Origin: Thioclava sediminum
GTDB taxonomy: Bacteria; Pseudomonadota; Alphaproteobacteria; Rhodobacterales; Rhodobacteraceae
Length of the DNA: 64,000 nt
Assembly: GCF_002020355.1 (NCBI RefSeq)
Contig: NZ_MPZV01000002.1
Span: 1 to 64,000, forward strand
Direction of reading: 5' to 3'
Shown: in pieces, positions 354-39,629 of the stretch
How the letters are laid out: each line of letters opens with the position of its first letter
How positions within the stretch are numbered: the first letter of the stretch is position 1
Position numbers and translations under genes: made by a program
The notes under the pieces: model-generated
What the model was told of the DNA's origin: nothing
The model's input: only the letters and a program-made list of their open reading frames with translations
Databases searched by the model: none

Positions 354-878
354 TCAGCTGTCATCAGAGTGCGCAGCGATGCCAGTGCGCCGGACTGGAT
401 AATGGAGGCGTTTTTCCTTCAGGAAGTTCGTCAATGTAACGCCAGCCCTTTCGATCTTCTGCTCGCGAACCACGTCCCACCCCTGCTGCTCAAAAAGGCC
501 TCGGGCAAGATAGCTCGCGTGGGAGTGAAGGCGTGCTATCACGCCGTCTCGTGCGATTGCCTCGATCCGGGCATAGAGAGACCCACCGACGCCCTGTCGT
601 TGGTAGCCGGGCGCGACGAAAGCAAGATCTATGTAGCCATCATCGTCCAAGGTCATAAAGCCAACGGGCTGGCCTACCAAACGCGCTACCACAGTTCTCT
701 GAGCGGTCAGGCGTGATGCCCAGTTGGGTCCCGAAGGCGGCCCCGACGCCCAAGCCCGCCGCTGCTCAAAATTATAGAATTCCCTAGCTCCTTCACGCAC
801 GGCATCAAAGAATATGACTCCGAGCTGATCCGCTTCTGAGATGCGGAAATCACCAATTTCTATGGAAGAGTTCAGCAT
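354..878 (-). CDS. GNAT-family N-acetyltransferase
   Basis: A 174-residue protein with the GNAT acetyl-CoA binding motif A: the V-x-P-x-Y-Q-R-Q-G-V-G stretch at about residues 88-98 follows a predicted beta strand (YIDLAFV). The family transfers an acetyl group from acetyl-CoA to an amine, here of unknown identity. I chose the ATG at 878 because AGGA lies about 9 bases upstream and the protein then begins directly with the fold; a longer reading frame to 965 adds an unlikely Arg-rich leader. It stands alone between the tRNA and the sugar cluster, and its substrate cannot be predicted. Confidence 0.8.
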   Translation of the reverse strand: MLNSSIEIGDFRISEADQLGVIFFDAVREGAREFYNFEQRRAWASGPPSGPNWASRLTAQRTVVARLVGQPVGFMTLDDDGYIDLAFVAPGYQRQGVGGSLYARIEAIARDGVIARLHSHASYLARGLFEQQGWDVVREQKIERAGVTLTNFLKEKRLHYPVRRTGIAAHSDDS

Positions 879-1081
879 TGCGGCGGTCCTGCGGTGGCAT
901 CTGAAATGAGCGCGATCGAAGCCCAACAGCGCCAAAGCTGACCTTCCCGCGTAACGTCGTATCATGCAAGTTCGGGCTCGAAGCGACCATTGCGCTTCGA
1001 GCCTTCACGTTTCTCACGCGCACCATTTACTGAGAAGGCCTGTCCTCTCGGCGCCGCTTTCTCGATGCTCTGTCAGAGGCC

Positions 1082-3442
1082 TCACGCGCCGTAGGCCACC
1101 CAGATGTTTTTCACCTGCGTCGCGCGGTCGAGGAACAGGCGCCCTTGCCCCGCACGGGCACCCCAGTCGCGTGCGTCATCGGCTTCGACCCAGGTCTGCT
1201 TGAGGTTCCCGGCGCTTTGCGCCTCGACCATCTGGCAGCCCTCGGCATTCCCGAAATACCACATCGCATCGACGCCATCATGGGCGGCCAGCGTCTTCGC
1301 CAACTCGTCGCGCGGGCCCGTGACGATGTTGACCACGCCGCCCGGCACGTCGGAGGTGTCGAGCACCTGATAGAGGTCGGTCGCGGCCAGCGGATGCGTC
1401 TGGCTCGGGACCAGCACCACGCGGTTGCCCATCGCAATCGCGGGGAGCACCAGCGAGATCGCCCCCAGAAGTGGTTGCGCGGTCGGGGCCACCAGCCCCA
1501 TCACCCCGATCGGCTCGTTCATCGCCAGCGTCACGAAGTCCGACTTGGTCGCATGGACCGCGCCGTCGAACTTGTCGGCCTGGGCTGCATACCAGAAGCA
1601 GCGCGCGACCGCCGTCTCGACCTCGGCCTCGGCGGCCTTGCGCGAGGCGCCGAAGCTTTCGAGACGGGCGGCGAATTCCGCGCCGCGCACCGAGAGGTTC
1701 TCGCCGATGTAATAGAGCACCTGCGCCCGGTTATGGCCCGTGGCCTTGCCCCAGCCCTTGGCCTTATGCGCCGCCTCGACCGCGTTGCGGATATCCTTGC
1801 GGTTGCCGAGCCCTGCGAGCCCCACGACCGCTTTGCCGCCCTTCACCTGATAGCTGTAGCCGCTATCGGGCCGCGCCTGCCTGCCGCCGACATAGAGCTT
1901 CGCGGTGCGGTCGATCTCGCCGCCCTTGATCGTATCTGCGGGGCCGGTCTCCAGCTCGGCGGGCGTCGTGCCCTTACCCTTGCCGGTTGCCGCCGCCGGG
2001 TTGCGCAGATAGGCACGCATGCCTTCGCGCCCGCCCTCGCGGCCGAAGCCGCTCTCGCGATAGCCGCCAAAGCCCGCGCCCGCGTCGAAGATGTTCGTGG
2101 AGTTGATCCAGACGATCCCGGCTTTCACCTGCCCCGCGATGTCGAGGCACAGGTTCACGTTCTCCGACCAGATGCTGGCCGCCAGCCCGTAGCGCGTGTT
2201 GTTGGCCAGCGCGACCGCATCGGACGGCGTGCGGAAGGTGGTGAGCGTGACCACGGGGCCGAAGATTTCCTCGGTCGCGAGAACGCTTGCGGGTTCGACA
2301 TCCGTCACCAGCGTCGGCGGGAAGAAGCACCCCTGAGGCGCGGAGCCTTGGGTCAGCGTCGCGCCCTCGCTTGCGCCCTTCTCGACCAGTTCGCGAATAC
2401 GCGCGAGCTGCGAGGGATGCACGATCGCGCCGATATCGGTGCTCTTGTCCATCGGATCGCCGGTGCGCAGCGTCTTCATCCGGGCACGCAGCAGCGTCTC
2501 GAACCGCTCGGCCACGGCCTCGGCGACGAGGATGCGCGAGCCTGCGCAGCAGACCTGTCCCTGATTGAACCAGATCGCATCCACCACGCCTTCGACGGCG
2601 GCGTCCAGATCGGCATCCTCGAAGACGACGAAGGGGGATTTGCCGCCCAGTTCCAGCGTCAGCGCTTTGCCGGACCCTGCGGTGCGCTCGCGCAGAATGC
2701 GGCCCACATCGGTCGAGCCGGTGAAGGCCAGTTTGTCGATCCCCTCATGGCCGACGATGGCAGCGCCGGTCTCGCCGTCGCCGGTGACGATGTTGATCAC
2801 GCCTTTCGGGATGCCGCATTCCTGTGCGATCTCGGCGAAGGCCAGCGCGGTCAGCGACGTGTATTCGGCGGGCTTCAGCACCACCGTATTGCCCGCCGCC
2901 AGCGCGGGCGCGACCTTCCACGACAGCATCAAAAGCGGGAAATTCCATGGGATGATCTGGCCGCAAACGCCCTGCGCGGTGTGACCCGGCAGCTCGTCCT
3001 CCAAGATCTCCGCCCAGCCCGCATGGTGATAGAAGTGGCGCGCGACCAGCGGGATGTCGATGTCGCGGCTCTCGCGGATCGGCTTGCCGCTGTCGAGGGT
3101 CTCCAGCACCGCCAGAAGGCGCGAGTGCTGCTGGATGTGGCGAGCCAAAGCGTAAAGATGCTTCGCACGCTGATGGCCCGACAGCTTCGCCCAACCGCTT
3201 TGCGCCTTGCGCGCGGCGGAGACGGCGGCATCCACGTCCGACGCTGTGCCTTGCGTGACGCGCGCCAGCACCGTGTCGCTTGCCGGATCGCGGACCTCGA
3301 ACAGATCGCCCGGCTTGGTCATCGCGCCGTCGATGAAATGGCCGAAGCCGCCCTCATGCTTGGCGAGCCATTTGCGCGCCTGGCTGTCGTCTTCGGGGGC
3401 CACGCCGTACTCCATGGTTTCGAGGATGTTCTGAATGCTCAT
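1082..3442 (-). CDS. Two-domain aldehyde dehydrogenase (ALDH16-type)
   Basis: A 786-residue NAD(P)-dependent aldehyde dehydrogenase, much longer than the usual 480-500. Residues about 40-490 form a complete catalytic unit: PWNFP with Asn167, the LELGG general base Glu264, and catalytic Cys298 in GQVCCAG. From about 510 to the end a second, partial ALDH-like domain repeats the coenzyme-binding half but shows no active-site Cys. This layout is that of family ALDH16, known from Rhodobacteraceae relatives. A strong AGGAG site precedes the ATG at 3442, 11 bases after deoC. As the last gene after deoC it most likely oxidises the acetaldehyde released by the aldolase. Whether the product is acetate or something else is not visible. 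Confidence 0.9.
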   Translation of the reverse strand: MSIQNILETMEYGVAPEDDSQARKWLAKHEGGFGHFIDGAMTKPGDLFEVRDPASDTVLARVTQGTASDVDAAVSAARKAQSGWAKLSGHQRAKHLYALARHIQQHSRLLAVLETLDSGKPIRESRDIDIPLVARHFYHHAGWAEILEDELPGHTAQGVCGQIIPWNFPLLMLSWKVAPALAAGNTVVLKPAEYTSLTALAFAEIAQECGIPKGVINIVTGDGETGAAIVGHEGIDKLAFTGSTDVGRILRERTAGSGKALTLELGGKSPFVVFEDADLDAAVEGVVDAIWFNQGQVCCAGSRILVAEAVAERFETLLRARMKTLRTGDPMDKSTDIGAIVHPSQLARIRELVEKGASEGATLTQGSAPQGCFFPPTLVTDVEPASVLATEEIFGPVVTLTTFRTPSDAVALANNTRYGLAASIWSENVNLCLDIAGQVKAGIVWINSTNIFDAGAGFGGYRESGFGREGGREGMRAYLRNPAAATGKGKGTTPAELETGPADTIKGGEIDRTAKLYVGGRQARPDSGYSYQVKGGKAVVGLAGLGNRKDIRNAVEAAHKAKGWGKATGHNRAQVLYYIGENLSVRGAEFAARLESFGASRKAAEAEVETAVARCFWYAAQADKFDGAVHATKSDFVTLAMNEPIGVMGLVAPTAQPLLGAISLVLPAIAMGNRVVLVPSQTHPLAATDLYQVLDTSDVPGGVVNIVTGPRDELAKTLAAHDGVDAMWYFGNAEGCQMVEAQSAGNLKQTWVEADDARDWGARAGQGRLFLDRATQVKNIWVAYGA

Positions 3443-3453
3443 TTTGTCTCTCC

Positions 3454-4473
3454 TCAGGCCAGCGCGTGACGGCTGCTATCGGCGTAACGGCCGGTGACGT
3501 AGTGCTCCAGCTGGCGCTCGATATCGCCCAGCATCGAGCTTGCACCGAAGCGGAACAGGTCGGGGTTGAGCCAGTCGCGGCCCAGCTCTTCTTTCATAAG
3601 GATCTGCCAGGCCAGCGCCTCTTTCGCCTGCTTCATCCCGCCCGCGGGTTTGAAGCCGATGCGGTGGCCGGTCGCCATCCCGTAATCGCGCAGCGCGCGC
3701 AGCATGGTCAGGCTGACGGGCAGCGTGGCGTTGACGCTTTCCTTGCCGGTCGAGGTCTTGATGAAATCGGCCCCCGCCTGCATCGCCACCATCGAGGCGG
3801 AATAGACGTTGTTGAGCGTCTCCAGCTCGCCAGTCGCCAGGATCGCCTTCATATGGGCGTCGCCGCAGGCCTCGCGCATCGCCGCGATCTCGTCATGCAG
3901 GCCCTGCCAGTTCCGGGTCAGCGCCAGTTCGCGGTTGATCACGATGTCGATCTCGGCCGCGCCCTGCGCCACCGCCCAGCGGATTTCCTCGAGCCGCAGA
4001 TGCAGCGGCATCAGACCTGCCGGAAAGCCTGTCGCGACCGAGGCCACGGGGATATTCGACCCTTCCAACGCCTTGACGGCATGGGGCACCATCGTCGGAT
4101 AGACGCAGACCGCGCCCACGGTCAGCTCGCCCGCGCTCAGGCCCAGCCCCGCCTCGATATGCGAGGCCAAGGGCTTGCGCGCCTTCGCGCAAAGCCGTTT
4201 CACCCGGCCCTCGGTATCGTCGCCCGCAAGCGTCGTCAGATCGACGCAGCGCACCGCGTTGACCAGCCACGCCGCCTGATGCGCCTTCTTCACGCTGCGC
4301 CGGGTGGTGAGCGTCGCGCAGCGGCGCTCGGCGGCGGCGCGGTTGACGCGGTGGCCCTCGAACATCCCCACATCGAGCGCCATGCCGGGGTTGCGCGCAT
4401 GCTCCCCTGCGGCCGCGGCGGTGGGCACCAAAGCCCCTTCCGCACGCGTCTCGGTTTTCATTTCGGTCTTCAT
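3454..4473 (-). CDS. deoC: Deoxyribose-phosphate aldolase DeoC
   Basis: A 339-residue class I aldolase that cleaves 2-deoxyribose-5-phosphate to glyceraldehyde-3-phosphate and acetaldehyde. The Schiff-base lysine is K239 in FIKTSTGK; the second lysine is K275 in GFKPAGG and the acidic residue is D176 in EIDIVIN. It belongs to the long DeoC type with an N-terminal extension of about 70 residues rather than the 220-260-residue short type. The start at 4473 has AGGAG 7 bases upstream. It lies 92 bases after the ribokinase-family gene and directly before the aldehyde dehydrogenase, so both aldolase products are catered for. Confidence 0.95.
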   Translation of the reverse strand: MKTEMKTETRAEGALVPTAAAAGEHARNPGMALDVGMFEGHRVNRAAAERRCATLTTRRSVKKAHQAAWLVNAVRCVDLTTLAGDDTEGRVKRLCAKARKPLASHIEAGLGLSAGELTVGAVCVYPTMVPHAVKALEGSNIPVASVATGFPAGLMPLHLRLEEIRWAVAQGAAEIDIVINRELALTRNWQGLHDEIAAMREACGDAHMKAILATGELETLNNVYSASMVAMQAGADFIKTSTGKESVNATLPVSLTMLRALRDYGMATGHRIGFKPAGGMKQAKEALAWQILMKEELGRDWLNPDLFRFGASSMLGDIERQLEHYVTGRYADSSRHALA

Positions 4474-4565
4474 TGCGTGTCTCCTAAATCGGGACTCGTC
4501 ACAGCCTCGCCGCCACGTCCGGAGTAATTCCCGGGCGTGCGCGATCGGGACAAGATCAGCATAAG

Positions 4566-5498
4566 TCAGCCGAGCCCATGCTCGGAAAGAAAGTCGTCGA
4601 ATTCGGCGGGCGTCGCGTAGCTTGTTTGCGTGCCGCGACGGGTGATCGACAATGCGGCATAGCGCGCGGCACGGGTCAGCGCCGCGGTGGGCTCCACCCC
4701 TTGGCCAAGGAAATGCGCGAAACTGCCGATGAAAGCGTCGCCCGCGCCGGTGGTATCGACCGGGCTGACCGAGACCGGGGCGATCTCTTCGACGGTGTCC
4801 GCGGTGATCCGGCGCGCGCCGCGCCCGCCAAGCGTCACCACGACGTTGTGGATGCCGCGTTCGATCAGGCTGCGCGCGGCGGCGATCACCTCGTCATCAG
4901 TGCCGGTGGGCAGCCCCGAAAGCATCGCCAGTTCGCTCTCGTTCGGGCAGAACCAGTCGAGCCCATCGAGCCGCGCGATATCCAGATCGGGATGCGCAGG
5001 CGCGGGGTTCAGGATCGTCGTCACCCCTTCGCGCGCCCCGAAGGCCACAGTGTGATAGACGGTTTCCAGATCGACCTCGAGCTGCATCAGGATCGCAGAG
5101 GCTGCGCGCAACGTCTCGGCCGCCGCATCGACATCGGCCGGTGCCAGCGCCGCATTGGCCCCTTTCACGATCAGGATCGCGTTCTCGCCATCACGCTCGA
5201 CGAAGATCGGCGCCACGCCCGAGGCCGAGCCTTCGACGGTGCGCACATGGGTCGTGTCGATCCCGTTTTTCTCCAGATTGGCGCGGACCTGCGGGCCGAA
5301 CCCGTCATCGCCCACGCAGGTGACCATCGCCACATCCGAGCCCAGACGCGCCGCGGCAACCGCCTGGTTCGCGCCCTTGCCCCCGAACCCCATCGCGAAA
5401 TCGGGGGCTTCGAGCGTCTCGCCGCGTCCCGGCATCCGGTCGATATAGGTCACCAGATCCATCATGTTCGAGCCGACGACGGCTATCTTCTCAGGCAT
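4566..5498 (-). CDS. PfkB/ribokinase-family sugar kinase
   Basis: A 310-residue kinase of the ribokinase family. It has the N-terminal sugar-binding signature GGKGANQAVAAARLG (about residues 39-53) and the C-terminal DTTGAGDAF signature carrying the anion hole and catalytic Asp. Known members phosphorylate ribose, deoxyribose or fructose. Next to deoC and a DeoR-type repressor, a deoxyribokinase role (sugar to deoxyribose-5-phosphate) is the best guess, but ribokinase cannot be excluded. The ATG at 5498 overlaps the end of the DUF4432 gene by 8 bases, which indicates translational coupling. Confidence 0.88.
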   Translation of the reverse strand: MPEKIAVVGSNMMDLVTYIDRMPGRGETLEAPDFAMGFGGKGANQAVAAARLGSDVAMVTCVGDDGFGPQVRANLEKNGIDTTHVRTVEGSASGVAPIFVERDGENAILIVKGANAALAPADVDAAAETLRAASAILMQLEVDLETVYHTVAFGAREGVTTILNPAPAHPDLDIARLDGLDWFCPNESELAMLSGLPTGTDDEVIAAARSLIERGIHNVVVTLGGRGARRITADTVEEIAPVSVSPVDTTGAGDAFIGSFAHFLGQGVEPTAALTRAARYAALSITRRGTQTSYATPAEFDDFLSEHGLG

Positions 5499-6585
5499 TC
5501 TCTTTCTCCGTCAGGTCGGAAATCGTCTTGGCGAGCGCGGTAGTCTCGGCCTTGTCAGTATAGCCGAAGCGGGTCGCGAAATGCGCGGTCTCTCCGGCTG
5601 GGAGGCTGCGGAGATTGCCCTTCGCCTTCTCCGCCGTGTAACCCTCGGGCTCGCAGGTGGACGGCAGCGCGAAGGCCGCGACCGAGGCATCCTCGCCGTT
5701 CAGGATCCAGCGCGCGAGGTGGTCGAACTGATCGGGCCGCCAGCTCATCGAGAACCCGTCGCCCGCGGGCCGCTCCAGAAGCGCGTGGCTCTCGCCCGAC
5801 GCATCGGCTGCGGGCCGCTCGATATAGAGAACCTGTTCGGGGTTCCACTTCTCGGGCGCGTCCAGCGTGGCGCTGTCTTCGGGCGCTTCCGCCAGCCGTT
5901 CAATGAAATCGGTATAGGCCCGCGTCGGCTGAACATGGGCGGGCACGTCGCGGCGGACGCGGGTACGCTCGGGCGTGAAGGGGGCCGCCTGATGGATGCG
6001 CCCGTCTTTGACGAAGGCGAAGTTCACATGGCACATATACATCAGGTCCATCGGCAGGGCGGAGCGGTTCTCGACCGCCATCGCCATCTCGATCTGAGTG
6101 GTTTCCCGCACCGTGATCGAGGGCATCGCGCGGTAATGCGGGCCGAAGCCACGGATGTAATCGACATGACCGCCAAGGCGCACGAACGCCCCCTGCCCGT
6201 CTTCGCCGATCTCCAGATGGGCGGCGTCCATCGTGGCACAGGCCATCTCGCCATGCAGCGGATGGTCATCCTGCGGACCGGGGCAACCGTTGCGCAGCAA
6301 GCCAGAGTGATAGGCGAGACAGCCATAGGTTTCGACGATCACCTGCGCCGGGCGCGGCTCGGCAAAGGCGCTGTCCATCGTCAGGCGCACGCCGTCGAAC
6401 ATCGCGTCCCAGAGCATCTGGCCCATGTAGGGCAGCATCTCGACCCGGCCGCGCGGGGTCTCCACGCCCACCATCTCGATGCCAAGCGCGGTGCGCCAGC
6501 CGGTGACGGTGAAACTGTCGGTCTTGGCGAGCACGCTCGGGGCCAGCCCGAACCGCTCACGCGGGAGAGGAATGATCACGCTCAT
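5491..6585 (-). CDS. DUF4432 aldose-1-epimerase-like protein
   Basis: A 364-residue protein resembling the DUF4432 group, which has the galactose-mutarotase-like beta-sandwich fold. His/Glu/Asp-rich stretches such as DDHPLHGEMA (about 120-130) and MCHVNFAF (about 220) are consistent with a carbohydrate-binding cleft. It has no signal peptide, so it should act in the cytoplasm. It begins one base after the stop of the permease and overlaps the kinase gene. I infer that it interconverts anomers of the imported sugar before phosphorylation, as deoxyribose mutarotases do in some enterobacteria; this is context, not proof. Confidence 0.75.
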   Translation of the reverse strand: MSVIIPLPRERFGLAPSVLAKTDSFTVTGWRTALGIEMVGVETPRGRVEMLPYMGQMLWDAMFDGVRLTMDSAFAEPRPAQVIVETYGCLAYHSGLLRNGCPGPQDDHPLHGEMACATMDAAHLEIGEDGQGAFVRLGGHVDYIRGFGPHYRAMPSITVRETTQIEMAMAVENRSALPMDLMYMCHVNFAFVKDGRIHQAAPFTPERTRVRRDVPAHVQPTRAYTDFIERLAEAPEDSATLDAPEKWNPEQVLYIERPAADASGESHALLERPAGDGFSMSWRPDQFDHLARWILNGEDASVAAFALPSTCEPEGYTAEKAKGNLRSLPAGETAHFATRFGYTDKAETTALAKTISDLTEKENA

Positions 6586-30108: not shown

Positions 30109-31647
30109 TCAGACCGCAGGTTTGCGGTGCAGCGTGCCCTGCTCGTAGGCATAGGCGCATTGGATCAAGGCGTGTTCGCTCCACTGCTGGCCGAGGAAGA
30201 TCAGCTCGAACGGCGCGCCGGAGGCGTAGTAGCCCGCGGGCACGGTGACGCCCGGAATGCCCGCGATATTCAGCTCCCCGACGGTTGTCTCGAGGATCGC
30301 GTCGCCCGAATGCAGGCCCGGCAATTCGCAGAGCATCTGCGGATAGACGAGCGCGTCGAGTTGATGGCGCGCGAAGACTTCCTCCATCAGCAGCAGATAG
30401 GTCCGCTTCAGGGCCGTGAACGCAGGCAGCGCGGGCGGCGTGGTCGGGGATTTCACCGCCTCGACGAAATCGGGCAGCTCGTTGAGGAAGCCGAGGATCG
30501 CCCCCTTCGCGAGCACGTTTTCCTCCTTCGTCGCCTCGACGAACTCCTCCCAAGTCTTGATCGCCGCATTCGGGCCCAGCCGTTCGAGATATTTCGTCAT
30601 GTCATAGGGGATGGATTCCAGCCCGCGCCCGTCGAAGAAGGGCGTGCCCGGCGTGATCTCCCGGTAGCTTGCGAAATCGGTGCCTGCGAATGGGTCCTCG
30701 ACGAGAACCGCGCCAAGGTCTTCGAGCTCGCTCTTCGCGCGGTCATAGAGATCCGACGCCTCGTGCGAGAGTTCGTTCTTCCGCCAGCCCGGCCCGTACA
30801 GCCCGAGCCGCTTGCCCTTCAGGCCGTCCTTCGACAGGCCCGAGGCGTAGCCGCCTTCGGGGATCTTGTCGACGCAAGCCAGCGTCTTGGGATCTTCGGT
30901 GGTGAACCCCGCCAGGACATCGAGGCCGAGGGCGGCATCCGTGACAGTGCGGGCAATCGGCCCGACCACGTCGCGATTGCCCGAGAGCGGCACGACCCCG
31001 GCATTCGGCACCAGCCCGATCGTCGGCTTGATGCCCACCAGCCCCTGCGCCGAGGCCGGGTTCTGGATCGAGCCGCCGGTTTCCTCGGCCAGCCCCATGA
31101 CGCACATATGGGTGGCGACCGCCGCCGCCGTGCCTGCGCTCGATCCGCCCGGCGCACGATCCTCGATCGCGGGGTTGATCGTGGGACCGGCCCAGCTGTC
31201 ATTGGCATGCGTTCCGGTCCAGCTGAGGATCGGGACGTTGGTCTTGCCGAGGATCACCGCATCGGCGGCGCGCATCCGGGCCACCACCGGGCTGTCGCGT
31301 TCGGGCATCAGATCGACGCCGCCCGTCCCGGAATAGAGAAGCCGCCAACCGGCCGTGGTGGGGATGCCCGCCATGTCCATCGGATCCTTCACGACGATCG
31401 GCACCCCGGCCAGCGGCCCGAGCGCCTCGCCCGCGGCGCGCCGCCGGTCGATGTCGCGGGCGGTCTCGAGGGCTGCGTCATTCTCGAAGATTATCGCGTT
31501 GTATTTGCCGTTCAGCGCCTTGACCTGAGCCATGCAGGCTTCGGTCAGCGCCTCTGCAGTGAACGCCCCCGAAGCCAGCCCCTCCTGAACGGCGGCGACG
31601 GTGAGCGTTCCGAGGTCGGGCAGATCGGGTTTCGTTTGAGCGGACAT
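30109..31647 (-). CDS. Amidase-signature-family amidase
   Basis: A 512-residue serine amidase hydrolysing an amide to acid and ammonia. The Ser-cisSer-Lys triad is visible: Lys87 in VVKDPMD, Ser169/170 in APGGSSAGT and nucleophile Ser193 in TGGSIQNPAS. The ATG at 31647 has AAAGGAG 8 bases upstream; a longer frame to 31800 is not supported. It is the last gene of the amide operon, 228 bases beyond the formamidase-type gene, so it may also be expressed on its own. The substrate range (aliphatic versus aryl amides) is not evident. Confidence 0.92.
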   Translation of the reverse strand: MSAQTKPDLPDLGTLTVAAVQEGLASGAFTAEALTEACMAQVKALNGKYNAIIFENDAALETARDIDRRRAAGEALGPLAGVPIVVKDPMDMAGIPTTAGWRLLYSGTGGVDLMPERDSPVVARMRAADAVILGKTNVPILSWTGTHANDSWAGPTINPAIEDRAPGGSSAGTAAAVATHMCVMGLAEETGGSIQNPASAQGLVGIKPTIGLVPNAGVVPLSGNRDVVGPIARTVTDAALGLDVLAGFTTEDPKTLACVDKIPEGGYASGLSKDGLKGKRLGLYGPGWRKNELSHEASDLYDRAKSELEDLGAVLVEDPFAGTDFASYREITPGTPFFDGRGLESIPYDMTKYLERLGPNAAIKTWEEFVEATKEENVLAKGAILGFLNELPDFVEAVKSPTTPPALPAFTALKRTYLLLMEEVFARHQLDALVYPQMLCELPGLHSGDAILETTVGELNIAGIPGVTVPAGYYASGAPFELIFLGQQWSEHALIQCAYAYEQGTLHRKPAV

Positions 31648-31875
31648 GAGAGACTCCTTTTCCGTTTGGCGGGCATGGTGCCGCCATCGCCCGAGCCGGA
31701 GCCGGGCGGGGTGGATCGAAAGTGACAAAGCTCGACCCGTGGCGCGAACCGCTGAGGCCGCAGGGACGGTCGAAGCCGGGAAGAAAAAGGTCGCCCTCAC
31801 CCAAGAAGCTGCCCTCCAAGGCAGAGGCGACAGGTTAAAGACCGCGCAACAAGGGATAGGGGCGCGGCCCTAAGC

Positions 31876-32874
31876 TCATTCAGCGATGCCGACGATCGAC
31901 TTCAGGACCGAGGCCCCGACCGTGTATTTCGGGTCGACCATGTTGCCGAGGCGCACGCGCCCGCATTGGGTCAGCAGCATGTAGGCGTCGATCTCGTCGA
32001 AGCCGAAATCGGCGGCCATCCAGCGGATCAGCTCGCGGTAAGCGCCGCGCGCGGCGTCTTCCATCGGGCGTGCCGAGCCGACGGTCATGTAGAACTCTTC
32101 GTTCTCCAGACGCGGCGTGCGGATCGTCCAGTTCTTGATCAGGTCGATGCGTACGGTAGTCACGGTCGGGTGCTCGACCGCAACGCCGCAAAGCTCACCG
32201 TCACCCTGGGCTGCGTGGCAATCCCCGAGGAACAGATAGCCGCCCTCGGTCTGTACGGGCAAATAGACGACCGCGCCCGGTGCGACATCGGGAAGGTCCA
32301 TGTTGCCGCCGTAATAATCCGGCACCAGCGAGGAGATCGCTTCGGCAATCGGCGCCGTGCCGATCGTGCCGATGAAGGGCTCGTAAGGCAGGCTGATCTT
32401 GTCGTTCCACTTCGTGCCCTCCTCGACGGTGATGTCGAGCTTGCGCACCACCTCGGGCAGCGGCGCGGTCAAGAGCGCCGTCTCGAAGGTGGGAACCAGA
32501 CCGCCGAATTCGGGCATGATCACCGTGGTCCCCCGCGGCTGCGGGCCGCGCGGCACGATGCTTTCGATATAGACCGCGATCGTGTCGCCCTTCTCGGCGC
32601 CGTTGACGTAGATCGGGCCGTTTTGCGGGTTCAGGAACGGGAAGTTCAGGATCTCGGTCGGCTTGTCGGTCTCCGACTTGATCGCACCTTCGAACGCGTC
32701 ATGGGTCTCGGCGCTGACGACGGTGCCCGGATCGACGGTCAGGACCGGCTCGATCCCGGCGGTGTAGATGTAGGGATAGCTTCCCTGCTCTTCCTCGGTG
32801 ATCGTGCGCTTCTCGAGGGTCTGACCTTTCGCCACGCCCTTGCGCGCCATGATGGATTCTTCAAACCAGCTCAT
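31876..32874 (-). CDS. Acetamidase/formamidase (FmdA/AmdA family)
   Basis: A 332-residue metal-dependent amidase that releases ammonia from formamide or acetamide. Family features include the LGDCHAAQGDGELCG metal-site region (about 216-230) and EHPTVTTVRIDLIK after it. AAAGGAG lies 7 bases before the ATG at 32874. Placed directly after the transporter ATPases, it supplies the intracellular hydrolysis step for the imported amide. Confidence 0.92.
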   Translation of the reverse strand: MSWFEESIMARKGVAKGQTLEKRTITEEEQGSYPYIYTAGIEPVLTVDPGTVVSAETHDAFEGAIKSETDKPTEILNFPFLNPQNGPIYVNGAEKGDTIAVYIESIVPRGPQPRGTTVIMPEFGGLVPTFETALLTAPLPEVVRKLDITVEEGTKWNDKISLPYEPFIGTIGTAPIAEAISSLVPDYYGGNMDLPDVAPGAVVYLPVQTEGGYLFLGDCHAAQGDGELCGVAVEHPTVTTVRIDLIKNWTIRTPRLENEEFYMTVGSARPMEDAARGAYRELIRWMAADFGFDEIDAYMLLTQCGRVRLGNMVDPKYTVGASVLKSIVGIAE

Positions 32875-32919: not shown

Positions 32920-33633
32920 TCAGACCGACAGGTATCGTCGGATCGTGTCGCGGTCCTGCAGCATCTCGCGGTCGAGCTCGGCGACGATCCGGCCCTTGTC
33001 CATGACGTAGCAGCGCTGCGCCATCGCCCGGATCATGTCGACATTCTGCTCCACGAAGACGACGGTCACGCCGGTCTCGCGGTTCAGCTCGACCATGATG
33101 CGCGCGATGTCCTGCACGATGTTCGGCTGGATCCCCTCGGAGGGCTCATCGAGCAGGATCATCGACGGATCGCCCATCAGCACGCGCCCGATGGCGAGCT
33201 GCTGCTGCTGACCGCCCGACATCGTGCCCGCCCGCTGATCGGCGCGCTCCTTGAGGATCGGGAAATAGCGGTAGATCTCATCGACCTTGCCGGGGGTGGA
33301 CTTGCCCGCGATGCTTTCACCAACGAGCAGGTTTTCGAGCACGGTCATGCGCGGGAAGACATCGCGGCCCTGCGGCACATAGCCGATGCCCTTGCGCGCC
33401 CGTTTATGCGCCGAGAGCAGGTCGATCGACGCGCCGTCGAGGTTGATCGACCCCTTGTCGGTCGACAACAGCCCAATCAGCGTTTTCATCAGGGTCGATT
33501 TGCCGACCCCGTTGCGCCCGATCACGGCGACGATCTCGCCCTCGCGGACCTGAAAATCGACGCCCTGCAGCACCGGCTTGCCGCCGTAGCCCGCATTGAG
33601 TTCGATCACGTCGAGAAGGACATCCTTACGCAT
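32920..33633 (-). CDS. Amide/urea ABC transporter ATPase, UrtE-like
   Basis: A 237-residue ABC ATPase with Walker A GRNGVGKST, signature MSGGQQQQLAIGR and Walker B MILLDEPSEG. SGGQQQQLAI is typical of UrtE-type subunits. The ATG at 33633 overlaps the end of the UrtD-like gene by 8 bases. Given amiC, amiR and two amidases in the operon, the transported substrate is more likely a short-chain amide (as in FmdDEF systems) than urea. Confidence 0.9.
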   Translation of the reverse strand: MRKDVLLDVIELNAGYGGKPVLQGVDFQVREGEIVAVIGRNGVGKSTLMKTLIGLLSTDKGSINLDGASIDLLSAHKRARKGIGYVPQGRDVFPRMTVLENLLVGESIAGKSTPGKVDEIYRYFPILKERADQRAGTMSGGQQQQLAIGRVLMGDPSMILLDEPSEGIQPNIVQDIARIMVELNRETGVTVVFVEQNVDMIRAMAQRCYVMDKGRIVAELDREMLQDRDTIRRYLSV

Positions 33634-34342
33634 CGACTTCTCCCAGATAGATGGCGGCGACACGTTCATCGGCGGTGATCTCGTCGATGGTGCCCTGCGC
33701 GAAAATCTTGCCGAAATGGAGCACCGTGACCTGGTGGGCGATCTGGCGCACAAATGCCATGTCATGCTCGACGGCGAGCAAGGTCATGCCCTCGCGGTTG
33801 AGTTCCTGAAGCATCTCGCCGGTGGCGAAGGTCTCGTCGGGCGTCATCCCTGCGGTCGGCTCGTCCAGCAGCAGCAGACGCGGTTTCAGCGCCACCGCCA
33901 TACCGATCTCGAGCCACTGTTTCTGCCCGTGGCTGAGATTGCCGGCGAGCTGCTTGCGGTCCTGCGAGAGTTTGAGGAACGCCAGCAGCCGGTCGATCTC
34001 TTCTTGCAGGATCTCGGGCGCGACATGGTGCTGAAGCGCGATCGTCAGGTTCTGCTGGACGCTCAGTTCCTTGAAGATGCCGGGCACCTGAAACTTCACG
34101 CTGATCCCCTTGCGGATGCGCTCGAACGGCTTCGCACGGGTGATCTCCTCGCCGTCATAGAGGATCGCGCCGCTATCGGGCAGATGCTCGCCGAGGATCA
34201 GCTTGAAGAAGGTGCTCTTGCCCGCCCCGTTGGGACCGATCAGGCAGTGCATCTCTCCGGGCTGAAGCGCGAAATCGACATTGCCCGTGACGTGGAGCCC
34301 GCCGAAATGCTTGTTGAGCTGGCGTGTTTCGAGAATGGCCAT
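33626..34342 (-). CDS. Amide/urea ABC transporter ATPase, UrtD-like
   Basis: A 238-residue ABC ATPase with Walker A GPNGAGKST, the unusual signature LSHGQKQWLEIGM that marks UrtD-type subunits, and Walker B LLLLDEPTAGM. I chose ATG 34342 (TGATG overlap with the permease stop, AGGAG 7 bases upstream) over the GTG one codon earlier. It forms a heterodimer with the UrtE-like protein. Confidence 0.9.
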   Translation of the reverse strand: MAILETRQLNKHFGGLHVTGNVDFALQPGEMHCLIGPNGAGKSTFFKLILGEHLPDSGAILYDGEEITRAKPFERIRKGISVKFQVPGIFKELSVQQNLTIALQHHVAPEILQEEIDRLLAFLKLSQDRKQLAGNLSHGQKQWLEIGMAVALKPRLLLLDEPTAGMTPDETFATGEMLQELNREGMTLLAVEHDMAFVRQIAHQVTVLHFGKIFAQGTIDEITADERVAAIYLGEVDA

Positions 34343-35412
34343 CACCGCTCTCCTTCCAGTTTGGATTTCCGGCGCATGAAGGGCGAGATCAGCGCGATGA
34401 CGATGCCACGCGGGGCGATCAGCACGGTGATCACCAAGAGCGTCCCCATCACGATCAGCGCGTATTGGCTGCCGTAGATCGTGAGCGACTGGAACACCAT
34501 CAGCACCGCGAGCGTGCCGATGATCGTGGTCGTGAGGTCCGTGCGTCCGCCGACCGCGACCCAGACGATGGGCAGTGAGGCCGCCGTCATCCCCATCGAG
34601 GCGGGCGTGATGTAGTTGCCCCAGGAGGTGTAGAGCACTCCCGACAGCCCGGCGAGCGCGGAGCCGATCACGAAGGTCGCCAGCTGATACTTGCGCACGT
34701 CATAGCCCAGCATCTCGGCGCGCATCGGGTTCTCGCGGATCGCCACGATGACATTGCCAAAGCGCGAATTCACGAGGATGCGCAGGCCGAGATAGCAGAC
34801 CAGCAGCAGCGCCAGCGTGACGTAGTAGAGGGTCACATCCGGATAGAGCACGATATTGCCGCCCGGCCACGGGATCGTCAGCGAGGGCATCGCGCCCATA
34901 CCGTTGAACCCGTTCAGACGCGCCTTGCCGATCGCCCATTCGGGCCCCGCCGTCTGCGCCATGAAGCGCTCGAGCACCAGCGTCACCGAAAGCGTCACGA
35001 TGCCGAGGAACACGCCGCTGATGCGCCCGAAGAACAGGAAGTAGCCAAGGATCGCCGCGAAAAGTGCGCTCAGGCCAACCGCCAGCACCAGCGAGAGCAG
35101 CGTCAGGCCGTAGGCGTCGCCGAGGTTGATCGTCAGGACCCCGTAGGCGTAGCCCGCGACCCCGAAGAAGGCGGTCTGGCCGAAGCTCAGCGCCCCGCCA
35201 TAGCCCCAGATCAGGCTCAGCCCCATCGCCATGAAGAGCCAGTTGAAGAAGTAGACGTTATTGCCGACGTCGTAGCTGTCCGCGAAGGCCGGATAGGCGC
35301 AGGCGGCCAGCAGGACGACGCTGAAGCCCGACCAGAATTTCGGTCCCTTGCCGAGGGTTTGCGGCCCCTCGATGAGCTTCAGAATGGAAGTGAAACGGGA
35401 TGCGCTGCTCAC
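34342..35412 (-). CDS. Amide/urea ABC transporter permease, UrtC-like
   Basis: A 356-residue branched-chain/urea-type permease with about ten membrane segments and the signature WGYGGALSFGQTAFFGVAGY (about 68-87). It ends in a basic tail (RRKSKLEGER). It follows the UrtB-like gene by one base and overlaps the UrtD-like gene. Confidence 0.9.
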   Translation of the reverse strand: MSSASRFTSILKLIEGPQTLGKGPKFWSGFSVVLLAACAYPAFADSYDVGNNVYFFNWLFMAMGLSLIWGYGGALSFGQTAFFGVAGYAYGVLTINLGDAYGLTLLSLVLAVGLSALFAAILGYFLFFGRISGVFLGIVTLSVTLVLERFMAQTAGPEWAIGKARLNGFNGMGAMPSLTIPWPGGNIVLYPDVTLYYVTLALLLVCYLGLRILVNSRFGNVIVAIRENPMRAEMLGYDVRKYQLATFVIGSALAGLSGVLYTSWGNYITPASMGMTAASLPIVWVAVGGRTDLTTTIIGTLAVLMVFQSLTIYGSQYALIVMGTLLVITVLIAPRGIVIALISPFMRRKSKLEGER

Positions 35413-35413
35413 G

Positions 35414-36286
35414 TCAGGCCCTTTCTTTCAGGATCTTGCCGCTGATGCCGCGCGGCAGGATGCGGATCACGATGATGACGGCGATGAGCATGCCGATCTG
35501 ACCGGCAAGCTGGCCCTGCCAGGAGGTCAGCGACGCTTTGATGAAGCCAAGCACGACCGCGGCAGGCGCCGTCCCGAGGAAGATGTCTGCGCCGCCCACG
35601 ACGACGGTCACGAAAGCCTCGACCATGAAGGCGGCCCCCATCGTCGGCACGAGCGTCATCGTCGGCGCGTAAAGCCCACCGGCAAGCCCCGCGAGCGCTG
35701 CGCCCAGACCGAAGGTCAGGCTGTAGATGAGGTTGGTGTTGACCCCGAGCGCCTCGGCCACATGCGGCACCTGGATCGTGGCGCGGGCAAGGATGCCGAA
35801 TCGCGTCTTGGTGAACATCAGCCACAAGGCGGCCAGCGTCGCGAGCGCCATCACCACGAGCACGATGCGGTAGATCGAATAGGAATAGTCGCCGACGGTG
35901 AAGCTGCCGAAGGGCGTGCCGCTGCCCGCCATCGTCGTGCCCAACACGATCAGCGTGCCTTGGGTGACGATCATCGAGATCCCCCAAGTGGCCACGATCG
36001 TATCGAGGGGACGTTTGTAGAGCGGGCGGATCACCACGACCTCGACGATCATCCCGGCGATACCGGCGGCCAGAGAGCCCAGCGCGATCGCGATCGGAAG
36101 GGGCACGCCCATATGGGTGGCGCTCGTCGAGACATAGGCGCCGCAGAGGATGAACTCGCCATGCGCGAGGTTGATCACGCCCATCATGCCGAAGATCACC
36201 GCGAGGCCGCAGGCGCTGAGCACGAGGAAGGCGAACGCGTCTCCGAACTGATAGAAGAAGCTGAAAAGAGAGTAGAGGAACTCCAT
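35414..36286 (-). CDS. Amide/urea ABC transporter permease, UrtB-like
   Basis: A 290-residue permease with the LivH/UrtB signature FGMMGVINLAHGEFILCGAY (about 32-51). The ATG at 36286 with AGGGA upstream is preferred; the extension to 36376 reads through the intercistronic hairpin. True UrtB proteins often carry a long N-terminal periplasmic domain; that is absent here, as in amide-type systems. Confidence 0.9.
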   Translation of the reverse strand: MEFLYSLFSFFYQFGDAFAFLVLSACGLAVIFGMMGVINLAHGEFILCGAYVSTSATHMGVPLPIAIALGSLAAGIAGMIVEVVVIRPLYKRPLDTIVATWGISMIVTQGTLIVLGTTMAGSGTPFGSFTVGDYSYSIYRIVLVVMALATLAALWLMFTKTRFGILARATIQVPHVAEALGVNTNLIYSLTFGLGAALAGLAGGLYAPTMTLVPTMGAAFMVEAFVTVVVGGADIFLGTAPAAVVLGFIKASLTSWQGQLAGQIGMLIAVIIVIRILPRGISGKILKERA

Positions 36287-36391: not shown

Positions 36392-37627
36392 TTACTCCGT
36401 CGGCAGGTGCGACGGGGTGTACTGGTCGCTCGGATCGTTCTGGGTCAGATCGCAGCCGACATCGCCCAGCCAGTAGGGCTTGATGTCATCCCATTTCTTC
36501 GGGAACTCGATCGAGTGATCTTCGAGCACATGGGCCAGATAGATCGTGTGCGAGGTGTGCTGGCTCTTCGGATCGATGCACATCTCGCCCTCGGGCGCGT
36601 CGTAGCACAGGTTGCCATCGGCGAGCGTGGCGCGCACATCTTCCAGAGCGGTAGAGCCGCCGGCTTTCTCGACCATCTCCTTGTAGAGATAGACCGCCGC
36701 GTAGGAGTTCTCGGCTTCCTGGTTGATGTAGGGCTCGTCGGGGAACATCGCGTGGAACTTCTCGACGAAGGCCTTGCTTTCCGGCGTGTCGATTTCCTCG
36801 ACATAGTTCACCGTCGCATACATGTCCTTCAGGCTCGGGGGCGTGAAGCGCTTATGCTCGTAGCCCTGACCCACGTTCACCGAGGACGCCATCGGCAGGT
36901 CGACATTCGCCGAACCGGCCTGCTCGTAATAGGACGACTGCGCCGTGCCCACCAGCAGCGTCACCACGAAGTCGGGCTTGGCCGCCTGGATGTTCTGGAT
37001 GGTCTGCGAGAACTGCGACACGCCGAGCGGGATGAACTCTTCGCCCACCATCTCGCCGCCATTGTCCTTGACGATGTTGCGCACCCATTCGGCCGAGATC
37101 TGACCGAAGTTGTAGTCGGCGGCGATGGTGTAGACGTTCTTGCCGTACTTCTCCATCATGTAGGGGATCAGCGTCGAGAACTGCTGCTCCGGCACCGCGC
37201 CGGTGACGATCATGTTCGCGTCGCAGACGCCGCCTTCATACTGGTTGTTGTAGAAGGCCAGACCGTCGAACTGGTTGACGATCGGGCGATAGGCTTCACG
37301 CGAGGCCGAGGAGAAGCCCGCGAAGACCACGTCCACCTTGTCGCGCTGCAGCACGCGGCGCATGAATTCCTGATAGCGCGTGTTGTCCGACTGGGTGTCG
37401 TAGGTCACCAGCTCGATCGGACGACCGGCGATACCGCCCGCGTCGTTGATTTCCTTGGTGGCCAGCTGGATGCCATGCACCTTGCCGATGGTCGCGAGGG
37501 CGAAATCCCCCGACTGGTCTTCGAGCACACCGATCTTGATCGGCTCGGCGTCCTGAGCCATCACGGGCCCTGCAAAAGACAATAGGGTAGCGAGCACCGA
37601 AGCGGTGCTGATCAGTTTCCTGGTCAT
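36392..37627 (-). CDS. Periplasmic amide/urea-binding protein (UrtA/FmdD-like)
   Basis: A 411-residue type I binding protein. The signal peptide covers about residues 1-25 (LLSFAGPVMAQ), and the mature part begins with DAEPIKIGVLEDQSGDF. The pattern DFVVTLLVGTAQSSYYEQAG resembles amide/urea binders such as FmdD and UrtA, and more distantly AmiC. The start at 37627 has AAGGAG 6 bases upstream. It is the first transporter gene of the operon, 41 bases after amiR. Confidence 0.9.
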   Translation of the reverse strand: MTRKLISTASVLATLLSFAGPVMAQDAEPIKIGVLEDQSGDFALATIGKVHGIQLATKEINDAGGIAGRPIELVTYDTQSDNTRYQEFMRRVLQRDKVDVVFAGFSSASREAYRPIVNQFDGLAFYNNQYEGGVCDANMIVTGAVPEQQFSTLIPYMMEKYGKNVYTIAADYNFGQISAEWVRNIVKDNGGEMVGEEFIPLGVSQFSQTIQNIQAAKPDFVVTLLVGTAQSSYYEQAGSANVDLPMASSVNVGQGYEHKRFTPPSLKDMYATVNYVEEIDTPESKAFVEKFHAMFPDEPYINQEAENSYAAVYLYKEMVEKAGGSTALEDVRATLADGNLCYDAPEGEMCIDPKSQHTSHTIYLAHVLEDHSIEFPKKWDDIKPYWLGDVGCDLTQNDPSDQYTPSHLPTE

Positions 37628-37668: not shown

Positions 37669-38325
37669 CTAGCGCGCCTGACACCTCTTTTTCGTTTCAC
37701 CGCGATCGAGATCGCTGTCCGGGTTTGCCAGCATCAGGGACTCGCAGTGGTCCTCGACGCTGACGCGCGCGCGCATGCTCTCCTTTCGCAGAAGGTCATA
37801 TGCGGCATCTTCGTTAAGCCCGCGCTGGCGCATGAGCGCCGCGACAGCCTTGATGACGTAAATACGTTTGCGGCGGCGTTCGCCCATATCGTCGAGGCTC
37901 GCCTTGAGGCCGTCGATTTGCTCGAACGCGTTCACGCCCAGATAGAGAGCGGAATAGACGGCGCCGCTATGGATCGGTTTTTGCAGGAAGGACGCGGCCC
38001 CGAGTTGGAGCATCGCCTTGAGACGGCTCGGCGCTTCCGTTCCGACCAGCCCGACCGTCGGACACGGCGCATGCTGGGGCGACAGGTTGAAACTCTCGGG
38101 CCAAGCCTGCGGCAGGTTTAGGTCGCCGTCGATGATGACGAGGTCGGCCTCTGGGCTCAGGTCTTCGGGCAGTTCGAAAACCTGGCGCGGCGAGACGGGA
38201 CGGGTATCCGGCTCCAGCCCCAGCCGACGCAATGTCGTTTCGAGAATGCCCAGCGAACGGCCCTCGGTGGTGAAGATGACGGCCCTGCGGCCGCGGAAGT
38301 TTTGCGCGATCCGGGGTGTCTTCAT
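37669..38325 (-). CDS. amiR: ANTAR-domain antiterminator AmiR
   Basis: A 218-residue RNA-binding antiterminator. A receiver-like N-terminal domain (about 10-125) lacks a convincing phosphorylation site, as in Pseudomonas AmiR. A coiled coil links it to the C-terminal ANTAR domain (KAVAALMRQRGLNEDAAYDLLRK, about 158-180). AmiR binds leader RNA hairpins and prevents transcription termination unless held by AmiC. The ATG overlaps the amiC stop (ATGA), ensuring balanced production. The leader upstream of amiC contains a matching terminator. Confidence 0.92.
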   Translation of the reverse strand: MKTPRIAQNFRGRRAVIFTTEGRSLGILETTLRRLGLEPDTRPVSPRQVFELPEDLSPEADLVIIDGDLNLPQAWPESFNLSPQHAPCPTVGLVGTEAPSRLKAMLQLGAASFLQKPIHSGAVYSALYLGVNAFEQIDGLKASLDDMGERRRKRIYVIKAVAALMRQRGLNEDAAYDLLRKESMRARVSVEDHCESLMLANPDSDLDRGETKKRCQAR

Positions 38326-39482
38326 TGAACCACCCTCACGTTCCTGCGCCGCTCCGCCGGCTCGAAGGTCGTCGTCGAGGAGACAAGATACGGGTCGGCC
38401 GCGATGGGTTCGGGCGCTTCGAGCAGGATGTCGAACTCGAAATCCGCGCGCGACAGCCCGATCCGGGGCGTGAGCGAGGCATGGTAGGTTTCGGGATCGA
38501 TCGTGACCCGGCCTTGCGGCGCGTCGAACACCTGACCCGCAGCCGCTTCGAGAACCGCCCCCACCGACGCGGTACCCGCATCGGCGATGGATTTCGCGAG
38601 CATATGAATGGCGACATAAGCGGCTTCGGCTTCGGCGGAAACGACAGGTCCCTCGGGGAAGGCTTTGCCATAGGCCTCGACGAAGCGCTTGTTGCGCTCA
38701 CCCGCGAGGGACGAGAAATAGACGCTGGAACTGATCTGCCCATCCGCCCCTACCGGGCCGATCGCGCGAAGCTCGGGCTCCGAGAGGTTACAGCTCGCGA
38801 TCGGGAAGCGCGTGGTCTGCTCGATGCCGCGCGCCTCACAGGTCTCCCGGAACGCCCGGAAGAACGCGTAAGAGGACTCGCCGATCAGCGCGTTGAACAC
38901 GAAATCAGGCTTGGTCTCGAGGATCTCCTCGATGATGGCGTCCATATCGGTCTCGCCGACCGGCAGATACCGCTCCGCCACCACTTCGCCGCGGCGCCGC
39001 TGAAGTTCCTCGCGCATCACCCGGTTGCTTTCCCAGCCCCAGATATAGTTCGAGCCGATGCAATAGGCGCGGCGGCCGAAGCGGGCGCAGAGAAAATCGA
39101 TGAGCGGCGACATGTGATGGTTCGGCGCCGCGCCCGTGTAGATGACGTTGGTCGAGCTCTCGAAGCCTTCGTAATGCGTCGGATACCACAGCAGCGCGTC
39201 ATGCTTCTCGAAGAGCGGGATCACTTCCTTGCGGCTCGACGAGGTGTAGCAGCCGCAGATATGGCGGATGCCTTGGTCGAACATGCTCTGCACCGCCGGC
39301 GCGTATTTGTGCAGATCGCTCTCGGGATCGACATGGATGGGGTCGAAGATAACCGCCGCGCTCGGGTCCGCGTTGATCTCATCACAGGCAAGCTGCGCGC
39401 CGTTGAGCTGCGTATGCGCCACTCTACCGTATGCGCCGGTGGTCGAGAAAAGCAGGCCGATCTGTAGGTCGAGACGTGTCAT
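38322..39482 (-). CDS. amiC: Amide-sensing negative regulator AmiC
   Basis: A 386-residue cytoplasmic protein with the periplasmic-binding fold but no signal peptide: it begins MTRLDLQIGLLFSTTGAYG. Stretches match Pseudomonas AmiC well, including GCYTSSSRKEVIPLFEKHDA, YPTHYEGFE and AEAAY. AmiC binds a small amide and then releases AmiR. I start it at ATG 39482, because the longer frame runs back through the leader terminator. It is the first gene of the amide operon. Confidence 0.92.
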   Translation of the reverse strand: MTRLDLQIGLLFSTTGAYGRVAHTQLNGAQLACDEINADPSAAVIFDPIHVDPESDLHKYAPAVQSMFDQGIRHICGCYTSSSRKEVIPLFEKHDALLWYPTHYEGFESSTNVIYTGAAPNHHMSPLIDFLCARFGRRAYCIGSNYIWGWESNRVMREELQRRRGEVVAERYLPVGETDMDAIIEEILETKPDFVFNALIGESSYAFFRAFRETCEARGIEQTTRFPIASCNLSEPELRAIGPVGADGQISSSVYFSSLAGERNKRFVEAYGKAFPEGPVVSAEAEAAYVAIHMLAKSIADAGTASVGAVLEAAAGQVFDAPQGRVTIDPETYHASLTPRIGLSRADFEFDILLEAPEPIAADPYLVSSTTTFEPAERRRNVRVVQ

Positions 39483-39500
39483 TTTCGATCTTCCAACGAC

Positions 39501-39533
39501 AAAAACCCCCAGAAGCAGAAACTGCTTTGGAGG
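39501..39533 (-). terminator. Leader terminator (attenuator) before amiC
   Basis: On the minus strand a 12-bp stem (5' arm CCTCCA-AAGCAG, loop TTT, 3' arm CTGCTT-C-TGGGGG, with one bulged C and one G-U pair) is followed at once by TTTTTG. It ends 18 bases before the amiC start codon. A textbook intrinsic terminator between promoter and first gene is the expected target of AmiR antitermination. Confidence 0.85.
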
Positions 39534-39592
39534 CGGAATTGCCGACATATCTGAGGGTTCAACGCGCCATGACGAGCACATTTGCTCGGCGC
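39532..39592 (-). promoter_or_regulatory. Candidate AmiR-binding leader hairpins
   Basis: Two hairpins precede the leader terminator. The first (39564-39592) pairs GCGCC/GGCGC around an inner GAGC/GCTC stem closing loop AAATGT. The second (39532-39543) pairs GGC/GCC around loop AATTCC and uses bases that also form the foot of the terminator stem, so the two are mutually exclusive. Both have six-base loops starting with A; the ANTAR consensus also wants G at loop position 4, which neither shows. Confidence 0.45.
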
Positions 39593-39599
39593 TTACCTC

Positions 39600-39629
39600 A
39601 AGCTAGGGAATCGATCACGAAGGTGTCAA
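39600..39629 (-). promoter_or_regulatory. Amide-operon promoter
   Basis: On the minus strand a perfect TTGACA (39629-39624) is followed after 18 bases by TAGCTT (39605-39600). The start would fall near 39593, right at the first leader hairpin. Confidence 0.6.

Follow-up and report, generated by a model that had tools for sequence, protein, structure and literature searches.

The leader of amiC in Thioclava sediminum is very probably an AmiR-dependent attenuator of transcription through which the operon regulates itself (we put this at roughly 84%), and it is one of a family of leaders conserved in Alphaproteobacteria. We analyzed a window of 64,000 nt from the Thioclava genome (4,128,131 bases, 8 contigs), in which the leader occupies 39629–39482 on the minus strand and the probable transcript up to the U-tract spans 39594–39501. 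The original prediction had interpreted this stretch as a leader for AmiR-controlled readthrough, an interpretation that our analysis supports. The switch is of a known kind, a variant whose loops break the stated rule for ANTAR targets (A in the first position of the loop and G in the fourth, hereafter A1 and G4) in an orderly, clade-wide way.

The operon lies on the minus strand and begins with amiC (38322–39482), encoding the amide sensor, which matches the P. aeruginosa AmiC structures 1PEA/1QO0 (E 1.6e-63) and is 98% identical to AmiC of Thioclava sp. JE_KL1. This periplasmic-binding-fold sensor adjoins amiR (37669–38325), encoding an ANTAR antiterminator whose ANTAR domain (PF03861) scores 41.5 bits against a cut-off of 27.3. 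Its AmiR_N domain, at 24.3 bits, is under the Pfam cut-off of 27, which the paralogues on contigs C1 and C3 pass; by that score, the window protein would be classed as AmiR-like and not as a formal AmiR_N member. The genes that follow encode a urea/amide-type ABC transporter, comprising a substrate-binding protein (36392–37627, above the cut-off of NCBIfam TIGR03669), UrtB-like and UrtC-like permeases (35414–36286 and 34342–35412), and UrtD-like and UrtE-like ATPases (33626–34345 and 32920–33672), the permeases and the UrtD-like ATPase being profile matches under the NCBIfam cut-offs and the UrtE-like ATPase slightly under. Downstream are an acetamidase/formamidase family protein (FmdA_AmdA, 31876–32874; Pfam PF03069, far under the NCBIfam FmdA cut-off) and an amidase of the amidase signature family (30109–31656; Pfam PF01425). 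The structure match and domain profiles thus uphold the gene identities first proposed from the sequence: AmiC, an ANTAR-type AmiR, and a transporter.

The predicted promoter, TTGACA-N18-TAGCTT, is present on the minus strand, with the −35 element at 39629–39624 and the −10-like element at 39605–39600. TTGAC is conserved in the orthologues, standing 41–47 nt 5′ of the RGC stem of the first hairpin (P1) in 78/80 leaders (best 80 of 589 AmiC relatives) and at 43 or 44 nt in 74 of them. Because TAGCTT is a poor −10 match and a simple promoter/terminator scanner run over the window called neither this promoter nor the terminator described below, the promoter call rests on conservation. A tRNA gene (Rfam RF00005; 39854–39940) lies 225 bases upstream of the −35 element on the same strand.

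P1 (39564–39592) is larger than predicted: the hairpin itself had been noticed, but its outer helix, GCGCC (39592–39588) paired with GGCGC (39568–39564), had been overlooked. This helix encloses the inner hairpin GAGC[AAAUGU]GCUC (39587–39574), with an internal loop, GUCAU, on the 3′ side. P1 folds at −13.2 kcal/mol (z −2.38); its hexaloop AAAUGU (39578–39583) has A1, U4 in place of G4, and G5, and when P1 is folded alone, A1 and U6 pair to leave a tetraloop. The second hairpin, P2 (39532–39543), is the candidate antiterminator, GGC[AAUUCC]GCC, with a loop (39540–39535) that has A1 and U4. Both P1 and P2 have at least three pairs closing a 6-nt loop. The intrinsic terminator (39505–39534), reading GCCUCCAAAGCAG-UUU-CUGCUU-C-UGGGGGU with the single C bulged, forms 12 pairs as predicted, or 13 when the G-U at its foot is counted, and folds at −16.7 kcal/mol (z −3.98; 0/200 shuffles equally good). 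As foreseen, the small second hairpin shares bases with the terminator: the 3′ GCC of P2 (39534–39532) is the terminator foot, making the two structures mutually exclusive. The U5 tract (39501–39505), whose first U pairs with the foot G, is followed 18 nt on by the amiC ATG at 39482, again as described originally, and we identified by eye a Shine-Dalgarno-like GGAAG at 39490–39494.

We compared this leader with those of the best 80 of 589 AmiC relatives from one scan of a species-genome collection, loci that, judging by genus name, we take to be mostly Rhodobacterales and Hyphomicrobiales. An AmiR match lies on the strand of amiC at all 80. The comparison across orthologous operons, suggested as a check in the original prediction, found P1/P2-type hairpins everywhere, the opposite of the missing conservation that the prediction had named as refuting it: the pair RGC[A..]GCY and RGC[N6]GCY occurs upstream of AmiC in 80/80 of these loci, against 0.56/80 expected from dinucleotide-shuffled leaders, although the pattern was written after viewing these leaders and the count is therefore not blind. 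The 3′ stem of P2 (at least 2 of its 3 bases) falls inside a terminator in 72 of the best 80, including one leader (L094) whose terminator folds at only −3.0 kcal/mol; 5 leaders are without a U-tract by the criterion used, and 3 more are without the P2 overlap. P1 and P2 are 31 nt apart in the Thioclava relative L038, whose leader is identical to that of the window there, and 28–67 nt apart in the orthologues. The separation is 57–67 nt in L068–L071 and L079–L088 (Bradyrhizobium, Ancylobacter, and others), and in many of these the gap is filled, as judged by eye, by an extra hairpin of the CCAAC...GTTGG type, which perhaps draws the distant P1 and P2 together.

For covariation, a filter on the 80 leaders dropped the Thioclava sequences (L038–L041), those with P1–P2 gaps above 40 nt, and those with no in-range U-tract; 29 passed, of which we aligned 28, omitting L094. 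The P1+P2 structure has 94.1% of its cells paired and 20 cells changed on both sides, and the P1+terminator structure has 92.6% paired and 40 changed on both sides. For both structures, paired cells, double-changed cells, and covariation score were equaled in 0/500 shuffles, which ignore relatedness, and slid controls paired in 30–48% of cells. The number of pairs with double changes was matched by 7/500 (P1+P2) and 0/500 (P1+terminator) shuffles, and that of further pair types by 89/500 and 34/500, respectively. The inner P1 stem and the P2 stem are 100% paired partly because the search pattern demanded both, and P2 is conserved in sequence with almost no covariation (one changed cell). Since these stems were preselected and P2 hardly varies, it is the outer P1 helix (double changes in 3/4 pairs, 83.9% paired) and the terminator (double changes in 6/9 pairs) that supply the real covariation support. 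A second alignment, of 28 leaders (27 distinct) with an internal loop of 3 nt in place of 5 nt, is 95.5% paired, and none of 500 shuffles reaches its covariation score; its double changes are unremarkable, with 254/500 shuffles as high for pairs and 57/500 for cells.

A covariance model built from the 28 non-Thioclava leaders, and thus trained on no Thioclava sequence, matches the window at 39594–39500 on the minus strand, a region already known beforehand, with 60.9 bits (E 3.1e-14). Across the whole genome (4.13 Mb), this leader is the sole strong match, the next scoring 16.2 bits (E 0.7). Among 256 genomes of the family, the model matches at E <1e-8 in 3, the same 3 that have a close AmiR (E 3e-62 or better), and three additional matches at E 0.005–0.01 are about what chance would give. 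Nine of the 256 genomes bear the transporter and all nine have an AmiR match, so this sample holds no amiR-free transporter as a control. Applied to 41 more distant AmiC–AmiR loci, the model scored 20.5 bits at best; it does not transfer to other AmiC–AmiR families.

On the attenuator reading, transcription would start slightly 5′ of P1. With no inducer present, AmiC would hold AmiR, the terminator would form as the RNA emerges, and most transcripts would end near 39501, leaving basal AmiC and AmiR. Binding of a short amide to AmiC, which the downstream genes suggest may be formamide or a relative, would free AmiR to grip P1 as it leaves the polymerase and then P2. By consuming the terminator foot, P2 would let the polymerase read into amiC, amiR, the transporter, and the amidase genes, raising AmiC, AmiR, and the enzymes together. 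The place of AmiC in this scheme would follow that in P. aeruginosa, where AmiC reportedly is an amide-sensitive brake, as O'Hara is said to have found in 1999. With the leader placed upstream of both regulator genes, the switch would feed back on itself. The gene order on which the original prediction based autoregulation is as it described; such autoregulation is not new in kind, since amiC and amiR of P. aeruginosa also lie downstream of the amiE leader.

Counting against the attenuator reading are the lack of G4, a stabler alternative fold, the tetraloop that P1 adopts when folded alone, its wide spacing from P2, the four EutV contact residues that AmiR lacks, the near-absence of covariation in P2, the leaders with no U-tract or P2 overlap, and the AmiR_N score under the cut-off. 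With regard to the first, passages of PMC3369931 report A1 and G4 in both loops of amiE, nasF, and eut alike; SELEX with NasR agrees with this preference (passages of PMC7496416), and mutation and structure work on EutV indicates G4 (passages of PMC3369931 and PMC8934654). Both window loops have A1 and neither has G4, U standing at position 4 in each, which bears out the original remark that they fit the rule imperfectly. Across the best 80 of 589, P1 has A at position 1 in all 80 leaders and at position 4 has G in 56, U in 18, A in 5, and C in 1; P2 has A in 57 and G in 23 at position 1, and G in 60, U in 14, and A in 6 at position 4. The 11 Rhodobacteraceae loci among these (Thioclava, Actibacterium, Celeribacter, Mangrovicoccus, and Paracoccus) have G4 in 0/22 loops and U4 in 21/22 (11 in P1, 10 in P2), and their P1 loops have G5 in 11/11, versus 1/69 elsewhere. 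In the other 69 loci, 116/138 loops have G4; base 4 varies outside the Rhodobacteraceae too, as G4 occurs in 56/69 P1 and 60/69 P2 loops there. L044, L045, and L049 (Phyllobacterium and a Hyphomicrobiales MAG) pair a G4 in P1 with U4 or A4 in P2, and their AmiR proteins are about 48–51% identical to the best query, with Ala at residue 155; they are possibly an intermediate or transferred system.

The second difficulty concerns the fold of the free RNA. The leader at 39594–39501 folds significantly (z −3.94; 0/200 shuffles as good), and its best fold, at −38.2 kcal/mol, keeps P1 and P2 and adds a possible alternative helix of 11 pairs (39503–39560, minus strand; 39560–39550 with 39513–39503) that encloses P2 and opens the terminator. 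Forcing the terminator gives −34.6 kcal/mol, 3.6 kcal/mol worse. The isolated leader of the window thus prefers P2 made and the terminator open, so a protein would be unneeded at equilibrium. The outcome varies with the ends chosen: in the leader extended to 39484, the alternative and terminator forms tie (−38.5 and −38.4 kcal/mol), the best folds of 39598–39484 and 39600–39480 contain the terminator, and a fold starting at 39590 lacks it. Of 75 orthologous leaders drawn from the best 80 of 589, 65 contain the terminator in their most stable fold. We considered the alternative helix as a conserved second antiterminator and rejected it, since the mean longest helix over 75 leaders is 6.15 pairs versus 6.08 in shuffled linkers. 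At 11 pairs in the window and in its near-identical relative L038 and 9 in L039, it is at most a Thioclava feature, shorter in other Thioclava. The free Thioclava RNA may be poised between the two forms; alternatively, the terminator, being local, may fold first and prevail.

These two departures could together mark a relic or leaky leader, one in which G4 has been lost, AmiR no longer binds, and the balance between terminator and alternative helix sets a fixed level of readthrough. The absence of G4 from all the Rhodobacteraceae loops and the greater stability of the alternative fold in the window speak for such a state; the same Rhodobacteraceae leaders, however, keep A1, the hexaloop size, the stems, the P2–terminator overlap, and the −35 spacing, U4 is near-uniform in place of decayed, and over 75 leaders the alternative helix is no longer than in shuffled linkers. 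We consider a relic unlikely.

Another explanation would keep the conserved attenuator and have it worked by a different ANTAR protein, either the paralogous AmiR of C1 or C3 or a fourth, or by cross-talk among them. The genome does hold four ANTAR domains, and the proteins at C1:1597997 and C3:52767 are each also within an AmiC–AmiR operon, but the leader accompanies an adjacent amiR in 80/80 loci (best 80 of 589) and in 3/3 of the family genomes that the model matches, and the C3 operon is preceded by a leader of its own, whose P2 loop (AUUCGC) differs, which leaves this explanation very improbable. On contig C3 (L036, about 219–5590), the second AmiC–AmiR pair of the genome is followed by two peptide-type permeases (OppC_N, BPD_transp_1) and a family-5 solute-binding protein. 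Its leader contains P2 GGC[AUUCGC]GCC, with C4, and a terminator, and would represent an ANTAR switch on a peptide-type transporter. A third AmiC–AmiR pair, on contig C1 (L035, 227–5850), lies ahead of a branched-chain/urea-type transporter; the automatic rule did not find a P2–terminator overlap in its leader.

The stretch might instead be the 5′ part of a longer amiC that starts at an in-frame ATG at 39581, with the hairpins incidental, and the frame is indeed open from 39581, with no in-frame stop between P1 and AmiC in 30/80 loci (best 80 of 589). We give this reading almost no credence, as the other 50 of these loci have such a stop, the compensatory changes track RNA pairs, and the match of AmiC to 1PEA/1QO0 starts at residue 8 counted from 39482. 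A ligand-binding riboswitch or leader-peptide attenuator that does not need AmiR would likewise account for a structured 5′ leader with an alternative fold ahead of a transporter/enzyme operon, but it has a negligible chance of being correct, given that no Rfam family matches there at E values as high as 5 and that the element has the dual-hexaloop architecture published for ANTAR targets and co-occurs with amiR.

We also asked whether the RNA-contacting surface of AmiR changes with loop base 4. An ungapped alignment to EutV, with contacts taken from passages of PMC8934654, indicates that window AmiR keeps 7/11 of them: R142, K147, E160, and Y164 as R154, K159, E172, and Y176, and R168, M172, and R175 as R180, M184, and R187. 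The remaining K143, K149, N173, and R177 are replaced by I155, V161, R185, and S189. According to the same passages of PMC8934654, EutV E160 and Y164 touch loop base 4, and K143 touches a phosphate from the other chain. We assembled 164 distinct AmiC–AmiR pairs, for 133 of which an automatic rule gave a P2 and for 31 none; some of the 133 calls are doubtful, with unusual stems (L121, L122, and L196). Some AmiR queries carry spurious N-terminal extensions, and we read the AmiR alignment over the ANTAR region only. Among these 133 leaders, Arg at residue 155 (EutV K143) goes with G at P2 base 4 in 59/73, Gln with C in 28/39 (otherwise A in 5, G in 3, and U in 3), and Ile, Ala, Pro, or Ser with U in 16/18. 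Base 4 of P2 is mostly C in the second AmiC–AmiR family, to which the C3 pair belongs.

We considered a direct code between residue 155 and base 4 but do not claim one. Their mutual information is the highest found (0.85 bits), but columns that simply mark clades reach 0.8, and there are counterexamples in several directions: R155 with C4 in L022, L123, and L173, with U4 in L058 and L059, and with A4 in 9 leaders (L068 among them is miscalled, its P2 reading GAGGGC), as well as Q155 with U4 in L178, L182, and L183, with A4 in 5 leaders, and with G4 in 3. In the second family, one residue is missing from the stretch between 155 and 176, making its residue 155 dependent on the alignment; counted back from the Tyr, it is R. 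In P. aeruginosa AmiR, the equivalent residue is, by eye, Ala, though the reported target has G4.

We further placed these changes on an AmiR tree of 141 leaders, consisting of the de-duplicated named ones and automatic matches with RGC/GCY stems. Of its 280 branches, 17 carry a change of base 4 and 12 a change of residue 155, with 4 branches carrying both. In a branch-length placement test, columns 172, 176, and 155 rank second, third, and fourth of 58 for base 4 (p 0.008, 0.011, and 0.015, uncorrected for the number of columns); column 142, which is not a known contact, ranks first, 154 ranks seventh, and 161 (EutV K149) ranks 37th. Column 172 ranks 2–6 of 58 whichever of the six loop positions is considered, which leaves only 155 and, to a lesser degree, 176 as apparently particular to base 4. 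Much of the association between residue 155 and base 4 is shared ancestry; the contact columns follow the loop in part, mainly at clade level and with the counterexamples given above, and we treat the association as a lead. It is a tentative and somewhat doubtful suggestion that base 4 is a specificity letter re-read several times by AmiR-type ANTAR proteins, with the surface equivalent to EutV E160, Y164, and R142/K143 co-changing. The letter would be G in most Hyphomicrobiales amide operons, U in Rhodobacteraceae, and C in most of the second family.

The amide system of P. aeruginosa is similar in having an AmiC homologue, an AmiR-type ANTAR protein, and a leader with small hairpins and a terminator. 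It differs in that the window leader precedes amiC and not an amidase gene, the window operon includes a urea-type ABC transporter, an FmdA-family protein, and an amidase, P. aeruginosa AmiR is a weak match (E 0.0014), and the amiE loops, as reported in passages of PMC3369931, have A1/G4 where the window has U4. The eut leaders of E. faecalis likewise carry a pair of hairpins whose loops are 6 nt long, and the second hairpin is embedded in the terminator. In the EutV model given in passages of PMC8934654, an ANTAR dimer takes P1 and then P2, which pre-empts the terminator, and antitermination was lost when the eut linker was made 20 nt longer. The window leader differs in that U replaces G at position 4 of each loop, P1 has an additional outer helix that covaries, and the spacing is wider; its sensor would be AmiC in place of a kinase. 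NasR–nasF of Klebsiella oxytoca is also an ANTAR-controlled attenuator of a nitrogen operon, with loops closed by C-G and A1 in the SELEX data; there, however, the nitrate-sensing NIT domain is in NasR itself, and SELEX preferred G4 (passages of PMC7496416). The matches described in parts of PMC3369931 include ANTAR-type motifs upstream of urea transporters, and operons like that of the window may be among them. Passages of PMC13209695 report that Klebsiella and Pseudomonas have amiC-amiR-amidase and urtABCDE-fmdA clusters, and they describe AmiR as an antiterminator; those passages do not treat leaders. Among the openly licensed papers listed in our searches, we found no title or abstract opening that describes this leader family or loops with U4 or C4.

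The A1/G4 target rule comes from a few systems and has served in genome searches; the clade-wise replacement of G4 by U4 or C4 suggests that such searches miss real ANTAR targets. This leader family is a natural series in which the reading of base 4 by ANTAR proteins can be tested, and it ties little-studied operons for amide, urea-type, and peptide transport to one control mechanism. In the Thioclava genome, the window leader has U4 versus C4 in the leader of the C3 paralogue, and re-reading of base 4, if true, would block cross-talk between paralogous AmiR switches in one cell.
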